From contig JANWWT010000001.1 in NCBI GenBank assembly GCA_025055675.1, positions 744,001-808,000 of the forward strand: 64,000 nt of DNA. The letters are read 5' to 3'. Origin of the DNA: Pseudanabaenaceae cyanobacterium SKYG29. GTDB taxonomy: Bacteria > Cyanobacteriota > Cyanobacteriia > Pseudanabaenales > Pseudanabaenaceae. Positions 22,341 to 24,485 of this stretch are shown here, piece after piece. The notes under the pieces are model-generated. The model saw only the letters and a program-made list of their open reading frames with translations. It was not told where the DNA came from and searched no databases. Each line of letters begins with the position of its first letter. Position 1 is the first letter of the stretch. A program made the translations under genes and the position numbers.

Positions 22341-22694
22341 ATGAAAGTTCTTAAACAAATTTTCCTTGCCTGCTTGTCCGTGCTCCTGGTTTTATGGGGG
22401 TCTGTGCAGCCTGCGCTGGCAACTACCTATGAAGTCAAGATGGGTACTGATAAAGGGCAGCTGGCTTTTGAACCTAAGGTTCTGACTGTTAAAGCAGGGG
22501 ACACGGTGCGTTGGATTAACAACAAAGCCTATCCCCACAATGTGGTGTTCAGTGACCCCAACTTGTCCCATCCTAAACTCCTGCTCAAGCCCAACCAGGT
22601 GGTGGAAACTACCTTCAATCAGCCGGGCGAGTACGACTACTACTGCACTCCCCATCGGGGTGCTGGGATGGTGGGCAAGATCATTGTCCAATAG
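22341..22694 (+). CDS. petE: Plastocyanin PetE
   Basis: Lumenal blue copper protein that carries electrons from cytochrome b6f to photosystem I or the oxidase. The signal peptide ends ALA, then about 90 mature residues. Copper ligands are all visible: His in YPHNVVF, then Cys, His and Met in YYCTPHRGAGM. The short loop and length are standard. It sits just behind psbV, and a strong terminator follows it, so psbV-petE may be read together. No cytochrome c6 gene is in the window. Confidence 0.96.
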   Translation: MKVLKQIFLACLSVLLVLWGSVQPALATTYEVKMGTDKGQLAFEPKVLTVKAGDTVRWINNKAYPHNVVFSDPNLSHPKLLLKPNQVVETTFNQPGEYDYYCTPHRGAGMVGKIIVQ

Positions 22695-22718
22695 CTACAG
22701 CTCTTTGCTCTCTCTTTG

Positions 22719-22745
22719 CCTGTCCCTACTAGGGGCGGGTTTTTT
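22719..22745 (+). terminator. petE: Rho-independent terminator of petE
   Basis: Stem CCTGTCCC / GGGGCGGG (two G-U pairs) around a TACTA loop, followed directly by six T. It begins 24 nt after the petE stop codon. Confidence 0.85.
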
Positions 22746-22860: not shown

Positions 22861-23460
22861 ATGACTATGACTTATCCCGTCCTTTCCCTTGCTCCTGAAG
22901 AGGCAATCAGCTTTTTGGCGCAGCTCTACTCTACAGTGATTGTGGTTGACCCACCAGAATTTGTGCGCCGCTACCGTGGACGGGTGTTGATTCACTCCTT
23001 GCCTTTCCCTGACCATCCCCGCCTACAGCAACTTTGCCTAGAATTTTTGGCTGCCTATGGTTTTGACCCTCACACTTTCCCTAGCTTGGCGCTGCAGGGT
23101 CTGGCTACTGTCGTCGATGCCTATCCCTACAATCCCGATCGTTTTTGTGCTGAGCAGGCAGAACATGGTTGCGGTGAGAGTCTCTATGCTTATCAGTTGG
23201 ACTACAATGTGCGAGGGGAAGTATGGGGCATAAGGTTGGGACAGACCTATTTTCTAGATGCGCCTGTTACGGATATTTTGCCACCCCCTGGTACGGAACA
23301 TGGGGACTTCTGGCTGCCCCAAACCACTTCTCAGCTGCGGGGGGTAGAACAAGCTCTATTGGAAGATGCTATCCAATGCCCAAGTTTGACAACACGTTAT
23401 AATGACTACGGTATGGGGCTGTGGCTCAGGTGGATAGAGCAAGCGCCTCCTAAGCGCTAG
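22861..23460 (+). CDS. ASCH-like domain protein whose 3' end lies inside tRNA-Arg
   Basis: 199 residues. The order of motifs is that of ASCH (PUA-like, RNA-binding) domains: RYRGRVLIHS near residue 38, LQGLATVVDAYPY near 80, and YFLDAPVTDILPPPGTEHGDFWLP near 130-155. No family function beyond possible RNA or nucleotide binding. The last 15 sense codons and the stop are made of tRNA-Arg sequence: the tRNA begins 46 nt before the stop. Either the gene truly ends there, or its original end was replaced. Two start ATGs lie six bases apart; the first is used. Confidence 0.72.
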   Translation: MTMTYPVLSLAPEEAISFLAQLYSTVIVVDPPEFVRRYRGRVLIHSLPFPDHPRLQQLCLEFLAAYGFDPHTFPSLALQGLATVVDAYPYNPDRFCAEQAEHGCGESLYAYQLDYNVRGEVWGIRLGQTYFLDAPVTDILPPPGTEHGDFWLPQTTSQLRGVEQALLEDAIQCPSLTTRYNDYGMGLWLRWIEQAPPKR

Positions 23461-23488
23461 GTCGCCGGTTCAAGTCCGGCCAGTCCCG
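23415..23488 (+). tRNA. tRNA-Arg (CCT)
   Basis: 74-nt cloverleaf: acceptor GGGGCTG with CAGTCCC (one G-U pair), D arm GCTC/GAGC, anticodon stem AGCGC/GCGCT with loop CTCCTAA (anticodon CCT, reads AGG), T arm GCCGG-TTCAAGT-CCGGC, discriminator G. CCA is not encoded. The first 46 nt double as the end of the ASCH-like reading frame. Confidence 0.95.
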
Positions 23489-23507
23489 TTGACAAGGAGG
23501 GAAAACG

Positions 23508-24485
23508 ATGCTAGCGATCGAGGTAAAAAATCTACGCAAGTCCTACAAGGATACTGTAGCTGTAGATGACCTTTCCCTAGAAGTGCCCCCTGGGGTAATT
23601 TATGGTTTGCTAGGTCCGAATGGGGCGGGCAAAACGACGACGATCCGCTGTATCTGTACTCTCCTCAAGCCCGATCGGGGCACGATCAAGGTTTGTGGAC
23701 TGACGGAGGAACGGGCAATCCGCCAGAAATTGGGTTATGTGGCTCAGGAAGTGGCGCTGGACAAGGTACTAACAGGTAGGGAACTCTTGCAATTACAAGC
23801 AGCTCTCTATCACCTTCCCCCTAGAGAGATTCCCCAGGCGATCGAGCGGGTTGTAGATTTACTGCAGCTAGGGGAGTATGCGGATAAACGATCGGGTACC
23901 TACTCCGGAGGTATACGCAAGCGGCTGGACTTGGCAGCGGGTTTATTGCATCAGCCAGAAGTGCTTGTTTTGGATGAACCGACGGTGGGTTTAGATATTC
24001 AGTCCCGTCTGGCAATTTGGGAATTTTTACAGAAGCTGCGGGCGAGTGGGATCACGATTCTCCTCACCAGTCACTACCTAGAAGAAATTGATGCTCTGGC
24101 AGACCGCGTGGCAATTATCGATCGGGGCAAGTTGATTGCTGAAGGTACACCCACCCAGCTGAAAGAGAGTCTAGGGGGCGATCGGGTGACTATTAAGATT
24201 AAGGAATTTACGGAGTTGGAGTTAGCCCAAAAAGCAATAGCAGTATTGGGGGGACTGCCCTTTGTGCGCAGTAGTTTGATTAATCCTGCCCAGGGGAATG
24301 CCGTTAGTTTAATAGTCAATTCGGAAGCGGGAGTACAGGAGAAAATTCAGTCCACTTTGAGCAGCCATGGTCTGCCTTTATTCAGCTACGCCCAATCTCG
24401 CCCTAGTTTGGATGATGTCTTTTTAGCCATTACGGGACAGACAATCCTAGATGCGGAACTAGCTCTGCTGGAACAAAAAAGGTAA
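23508..24485 (+). CDS. ABC transporter ATP-binding protein, DrrA/CcmA-like
   Basis: 325-residue ATPase of the type that pairs with ABC-2 permeases. Walker A is GPNGAGKTTT, the signature is YSGGIRKRLDLA, Walker B is VLVLDEPTVGLD, and the switch His is in LTSHYLEE. The ~100-residue C-terminal extension (after the GKLIAEGTPTQLKE block) is typical of DrrA/YadG-like ATPases. No permease gene lies beside it; its partner must be elsewhere. A good GGAGGG ribosome site lies 11 nt before the ATG. Substrate unknown. Confidence 0.88.
   Translation: MLAIEVKNLRKSYKDTVAVDDLSLEVPPGVIYGLLGPNGAGKTTTIRCICTLLKPDRGTIKVCGLTEERAIRQKLGYVAQEVALDKVLTGRELLQLQAALYHLPPREIPQAIERVVDLLQLGEYADKRSGTYSGGIRKRLDLAAGLLHQPEVLVLDEPTVGLDIQSRLAIWEFLQKLRASGITILLTSHYLEEIDALADRVAIIDRGKLIAEGTPTQLKESLGGDRVTIKIKEFTELELAQKAIAVLGGLPFVRSSLINPAQGNAVSLIVNSEAGVQEKIQSTLSSHGLPLFSYAQSRPSLDDVFLAITGQTILDAELALLEQKR

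Follow-up and report, generated by a model that had tools for sequence, protein, structure and literature searches.

Overlaps between protein-coding genes and t(m)RNA genes have been surveyed in bacteria by Hudson, Lau and Williams (2014; PMC4131195), who considered 115,660 t(m)RNA genes from 2031 bacterial genome projects. The survey reports 379 same-orientation overlaps with Pfam-positive genes, the gene being upstream in 250 of them, and names such overlaps as candidates for the production of non-stop mRNA at high frequency. According to the same source, the families at the top of the list trace back to a small number of evolutionary events within groups of closely related genomes, the commonest case being FtsW/RodA with tRNA-Ile(CAT) in Helicobacter.

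Here we describe a gene of the cyanobacterium SKYG29 (Pseudanabaenaceae) that ends inside tRNA-Arg(CCT). The gene lies in a stretch of 64,000 nucleotides, referred to as the window. Overlaps like this one are rare, but the type has precedents in other bacteria. As in the overlaps of the survey (PMC4131195), a same-strand coding sequence is located 5' of the RNA gene and ends inside it, and a non-stop mRNA is expected on maturation of the RNA. The survey as described was confined to Pfam-positive genes, whereas none of the 28 members of the present protein family has an informative match; because of this filter the present overlap would have escaped the count. A similar case is that of Carsonella (PMC4131195), in which smpB runs into ssrA, so that there too the RNA gene supplies the C-terminus of a protein and a non-stop message is expected. 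However, the gene concerned in Carsonella is smpB itself, in an endosymbiont genome of 157-174 kb, whereas here it is a gene with an ASCH-like fold in a cyanobacterium of 2.56 Mb. The locus is also reminiscent of tRNA punctuation in animal mitochondria (PMC9674279), where a tRNA adjoins the coding end and its excision sets the 3' end of the mRNA. In mitochondria the transcript is polycistronic and the stop codon is often completed by polyadenylation, whereas the stop codon here is encoded in the tRNA. Mitochondrial punctuation is further marked by tRNAs that lack a promoter of their own, and the conserved candidate -10 element of the present locus (6/6, 11 nt before the tRNA) speaks against such a situation.

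Geometry of the overlap

The coordinates of the locus, together with the other gene ends found inside tRNAs of the same genome, are presented in Table 1. Infernal called the tRNA at G000:C1:767415-767488, which corresponds to 23415-23488 of the window, with a score of 64.2 bits (above the family cut-off), and ARAGORN called it within slightly wider limits (23414-23489) and with the same anticodon, CCT. An earlier note on this DNA had stated that a protein frame enters tRNA-Arg(CCT) by 46 nt and stops inside it, and this is confirmed from the sequence and by both programs. The note had also assigned the last 15 sense codons to the tRNA. This is correct for 14 whole codons (GLWLRWIEQAPPKR), which are followed by the stop codon, but not for the 15th (ATG, 23413-23415), of which only the last base belongs to the tRNA. 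The TAG is located where the anticodon stem ends and the variable loop starts, and the anticodon CCT serves as a proline codon in the 199-codon frame.

Table 1. Features of the overlap locus (window coordinates unless a contig is given) and further gene ends inside tRNAs of the same genome
Feature	Position	Strand	Basis
199-aa frame, ASCH-like fold, no own stop ahead of the tRNA	22861..23460	+	ATG...TAG, sequence
Conserved core, codons 1-170	22861..23370	+	homologue alignment
Nine tail codons 5' of the -10 (IQCPSLTTR)	23371..23397	+	three-genome codon comparison
TATAAT, likely -10 of the tRNA's own promoter, inside the frame (Y180 N181)	23398..23403	+	invariant, 3 genomes
tRNA-Arg, anticodon CCT	23415..23488	+	Infernal, ARAGORN
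46-nt overlap, closed by the stop codon TAG at 23458-23460	23415..23460	+	sequence
AGGAGG, probable ribosome-binding site for the ABC gene, 6 nt 3' of the tRNA	23495..23500	+	sequence
ABC transporter ATPase gene (DrrA-like), start 19 nt 3' of the tRNA	23508..24485	+	homology
Sulfotransferase-like gene, 9 nt into a tRNA		antisense	own-genome scan
Response regulator gene, 9 nt into a tRNA		antisense	own-genome scan
Histidine kinase gene, 36 nt into tRNA-Ser(CGA)	L057, G000:C7:86622-86708	antisense	own-genome scan
TlyA/FtsJ-like methyltransferase gene, 41 nt into tRNA-Met	L059, G000:C1:52708-52779	antisense	own-genome scan

With the coding sequence 5', on the same strand, and its stop within the tRNA, the locus has the geometry of the Hudson-type overlaps. 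The tRNA is a genuine one by both ARAGORN and Infernal, and the protein gene is genuine by its conservation and fold. The Pfam proxy used in the survey does not recover the gene, and we have treated a Pfam match as the filter of that survey and not as a defining feature of the overlap class. Folded alone, tRNA-Arg(CCT) adopts a cloverleaf, and in the centroid fold of the tRNA in its context the acceptor and D stems are missing; in comparison to shuffled sequences the folding energies are unremarkable (z -1.81 alone, 0.34 in context).

The protein core and its tail

The AlphaFold2 model of the 199-aa frame has a mean pLDDT of 66.8, falling below 50 in the tail. Residues 1-146 of the model are similar to 2dp9 (TTHA0113; VIA Z 10.4, rmsd 3.5, 108 aligned; Foldseek E 2.7e-4) and to ZmASCH, 5y6c (VIA Z 9.8, 116 aligned), and further weak matches named ASCH were obtained in a BFVD search. 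Searches with sequence gave less: the best value against solved structures was E 0.65, the frame itself has no informative match in Pfam or NCBIfam, and in Pfam the same is true of all 28 family members, two of which had one match each (E 0.083 and 0.17), with no match of any member to Pfam's ASCH model at E up to 1. The predicted structure therefore supports an ASCH/PUA-like protein at the level of fold, and we speak of an ASCH-like fold and not of a member of the Pfam ASCH family. The label "ASCH-like" given in the earlier note holds for the fold, by Foldseek and VIA Z, but not in the Pfam sense. ZmASCH has been reported as a ribonuclease acting on single-stranded RNA (PMC5615036).

Matches to the frame are present in 33 of 58 genomes. 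The match in G053 covers residues 181-199 and corresponds to the tRNA gene, and hence 32 genomes contain homologues. In both other genomes of the genus, whose proteins are 90% and 76% identical to that of the window, the frame ends at the identical base of the tRNA; the overlap is thus kept, with no earlier stop, in all three genomes that make up the genus sample. In contrast, all 27 homologues retrieved from other genera (L004-L030) stop earlier, and none of those loci contains a tRNA. These homologues end at or just past positions that correspond to residues ~166-173 of the query, L008 ending earlier, and have lengths of 149-179 aa counted from the start of the match; 28 of the 30 rows of the homologue alignment (A2) were used, L018 and L028 being omitted. 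For the comparison of tRNA-Arg(CCT) loci 25 of 30 were used, leaving aside L119 and L120 (partial) and the second, weaker matches L121-L123, and the longest same-strand frame that enters this tRNA at the 23 loci of other genera is 100 aa.

As judged from these alignments, the overlap is beyond chance. In the genomes compared, the tail is a genus-specific add-on beyond the conserved ASCH-fold core, since the genus genomes share the overlap and the 27 others end before it. Homologues without the last ~15 residues had been named in the earlier note as evidence that these residues are not part of the protein. Outside the genus, every retrieved homologue is of this type, but within the genus all three proteins keep the tail.

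Codons 171-179 show 11 substitution events among the three genomes, 7 of them synonymous, including 3 in one arginine codon. The neutral chance of at least 7 synonymous events out of 11 is 0.002-0.011, for events that were counted by hand and selected after looking. The only gap in these codons, in G002, is in-frame (6 nt, two codons), and the tRNA-coded part differs among the genomes by a single, synonymous change (AGG/AGA). A random stretch of nine codons has a 65% probability of containing no stop, and therefore the open frame alone says little. The pattern of changes weakly suggests that the first nine codons of the tail are translated. By alignment and model, the tail falls outside the conserved protein, because homologues elsewhere end without it and its pLDDT is low.

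Candidate promoter, neighbourhood and other overlaps in the genus

The hexamer TATAAT (6/6 match), 11 nt before the tRNA and within the frame, is invariant across the three genus genomes. A -10 element matching at 5/6 positions or better is present 4-16 nt before 24 of the 39 tRNAs of the window's genome, compared to 20 of 725 control positions (Fisher p ~2e-23). Over the stretch that runs from the -10 up to the tRNA, the three genomes agree at all six wobble bases, whereas they agree at only 47 of 169 in the core, where a single one of 164 six-codon windows is equally conserved at its wobble positions. On this pattern, TATAAT looks like a promoter that is read as codons. It was not listed in a scan for consensus promoters, the counts of which are at chance level, because there is no -35 match at 16-18 nt. 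From the -10 element we infer that transcription of tRNA-Arg(CCT) is driven by an in-frame promoter of the tRNA and does not depend on the gene's transcript, and therefore the tRNA could be made with the mRNA of the gene left untouched. The earlier note had posed a choice between translation preceding cleavage and a tRNA-targeted rearrangement. This choice omits the likeliest case, a promoter belonging to the tRNA itself; some rearrangement is indeed supported, but not one targeted to the tRNA.

On the 3' side, no terminator was found between the tRNA and the ABC gene in a scan whose overall result is at chance level. The nearest terminator-like sites are located at 22718-22740 (after the plastocyanin gene), 22982-22997 (in the frame) and 23584-23597 (in the ABC gene). 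Since the 19-nt gap (window 23489-23507) has no terminator-like site, the tRNA and the ABC mRNA may share one transcript that is split by 3' processing of the tRNA.

The order psbV-like cytochrome gene, (plastocyanin gene), frame, tRNA and ABC gene is present only in the three genus genomes; the retrieved loci from other genera have frame and tRNA in separate places. In the two other genus genomes the ABC gene likewise starts 19 nt 3' of the tRNA, with no element between. The gene-tRNA neighbourhood is thus genus-specific and, on this comparison, an ancestral rearrangement in the genus most likely joined frame and tRNA. G002 (L070) also carries the plastocyanin gene that precedes the frame here (window 22341-22694), and no match to it was obtained at the genus locus L071, where the frame directly follows the cytochrome gene.

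The possibility that the tRNA has been adapted to the overlap was considered and rejected. At the base of tRNA-Arg(CCT) that distinguishes a readable TGG from TAG, TGG is found at 11 of the 23 other-genus loci and TAG at the remaining 12, and no long frame enters the tRNA at these 11 TGG loci. As TGG already occurs there, it did not arise as an adaptation to the overlap.

In the window's genome, supported genes end inside 5 of the 39 tRNAs, one in the sense orientation (the 199-codon frame) and four antisense (Table 1). The overlap of the methyltransferase gene with tRNA-Met(CAT), 41-42 nt in length, is found in all three genus genomes (L059; L149 in G002; L240 in G001), and provides the protein with the C-terminal tail ..GVGIEPTxQRL. 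In two larger genomes of the family no tRNA was found to hold such an end (0/30 and 0/33; Fisher p 0.007 for 5/39 against 0/63, with unequal frame thresholds of at least 60 aa in the own genome and at least 90 aa in the comparators). Comparator tRNA sets were the best 30 loci of 41 (G004), 52 (G014), 40 (G002) and 39 (G001). In the comparators, Pfam-negative frames of 93-154 aa were excluded from the gene count, as were, in the own genome, a pair of Pfam-negative same-strand frames that end in a tRNA (129 and 79 aa) and frames crossing a whole tRNA. A gene of the NFACT family (Pfam NFACT_N) extends 41 nt antisense into a tRNA-Met(CAT) of G002 (L143, G002:C4:525937-526010), and the tRNA-Met(CAT) of L051 in the window's genome has no entering frame of at least 60 aa.

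Fate of the read-through message

RNase P cuts at the 5' end of tRNAs, and tmRNA together with SmpB clears non-stop messages. SmpB is encoded in all three genus genomes. So is tmRNA, which was identified by ARAGORN in G001 and G002 and by DNA search, at 97% identity, in G000; a search with RF01851 had no match in G000, and those in G001 and G002 stayed below the threshold. As both genes are present, rescue of non-stop messages would be available in the genus. The argument of the earlier note that processing of the tRNA cuts the read-through mRNA and leaves it with no stop is sound as an inference, and has been published for overlaps of this kind (PMC4131195).

We consider it probable that the overlap is the product of a rearrangement and the loss of a stop codon, and that it was then tolerated, with the promoter of the tRNA lying in the frame and cut messages being non-stop. 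In the ancestor of the genus, the ASCH-fold gene would have come to adjoin the 5' side of tRNA-Arg(CCT) and would no longer have had a stop codon of its own, whereupon the frame would read the tRNA promoter (TATAAT as Tyr-Asn) and 46 nt of tRNA up to the TAG. The tRNA would be transcribed from the in-frame promoter with no need of the gene. Either ribosomes would translate a read-through message as far as the TAG, so that the protein has a tail of ~27 residues, or the message would be cut by RNase P at the 5' end of the tRNA and so become non-stop, in which case the ribosomes on it would be released by tmRNA-SmpB. The tail would cost little because it is outside the core and without a confidently predicted fold.

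Other readings of the overlap can be weighed against the same evidence. Selection of the tail as a functional protein segment seems unlikely: the 7 synonymous events out of 11 in codons 171-179, the in-frame gap of G002 and the silent AGG/AGA change would all agree with it, but the tRNA by itself constrains the residues that it encodes, the tail has a pLDDT below 50 and it is missing from every retrieved homologue of other genera. We also regard as quite unlikely a regulatory device in which maturation of the tRNA sets the amount of full-length ASCH protein, cleaved messages being non-stop and their products tagged and destroyed. Persistence of the overlap across 76-90% protein identity, the presence of the SmpB and tmRNA genes and the single-stranded-RNA RNase among ASCH-fold proteins (PMC5615036) are in line with such a device. 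However, TGG for TAG also occurs in the 11 of 23 other-genus loci that have no long entering frame, and support for the device is limited to conservation, no response being seen in these sequence data; conservation of the overlap needs no regulatory selection, because the tRNA's own function fixes its sequence and promoter. It is very unlikely that the tRNA acts as a switch, with full-length protein made only from messages that are translated as far as the TAG ahead of RNase P cleavage. If this were true, the amount of a protein that possibly acts on RNA would depend, through tmRNA tagging, on how tRNA processing stands.

A different origin had been offered in the earlier note, as one of two options: a rearrangement targeted to the tRNA as the source of the end of the frame. 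Integration is common at tRNA genes, and integrating elements usually duplicate the 3' half of the tRNA. Creation of the frame's end by tRNA-targeted integration or excision would suit this use of tRNA genes and the genus-specific neighbourhood, but it is highly improbable, as a search of the window allowing up to 3 mismatches found neither tRNA end duplicated, the same ABC gene follows 19 nt after the tRNA in all three genomes with nothing inserted, and the frame is on the 5' side, not at the half that elements usually duplicate. Finally, a chance or decayed ORF, which would be no gene at all, can practically be dismissed. The lack of an informative Pfam match in all 28 family members would be expected of such an ORF, but homologues in 32 of 58 genomes, invariant residues among them, changes in the core that are biased to third positions and the predicted ASCH fold are against it, and conservation has already refuted this candidate.

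Tolerance of an overlap that arose by rearrangement and stop loss thus remains our preferred explanation. The locus offers a clean natural case of a stop codon placed within a structural RNA that the cell must excise, in a group of organisms equipped with tmRNA and SmpB, and the competition among translation, RNase P cleavage and ribosome rescue could be quantified there. Surveys restricted to Pfam-positive genes overlook overlaps of this type, and gene ends inside tRNAs are recurrent in the genus.
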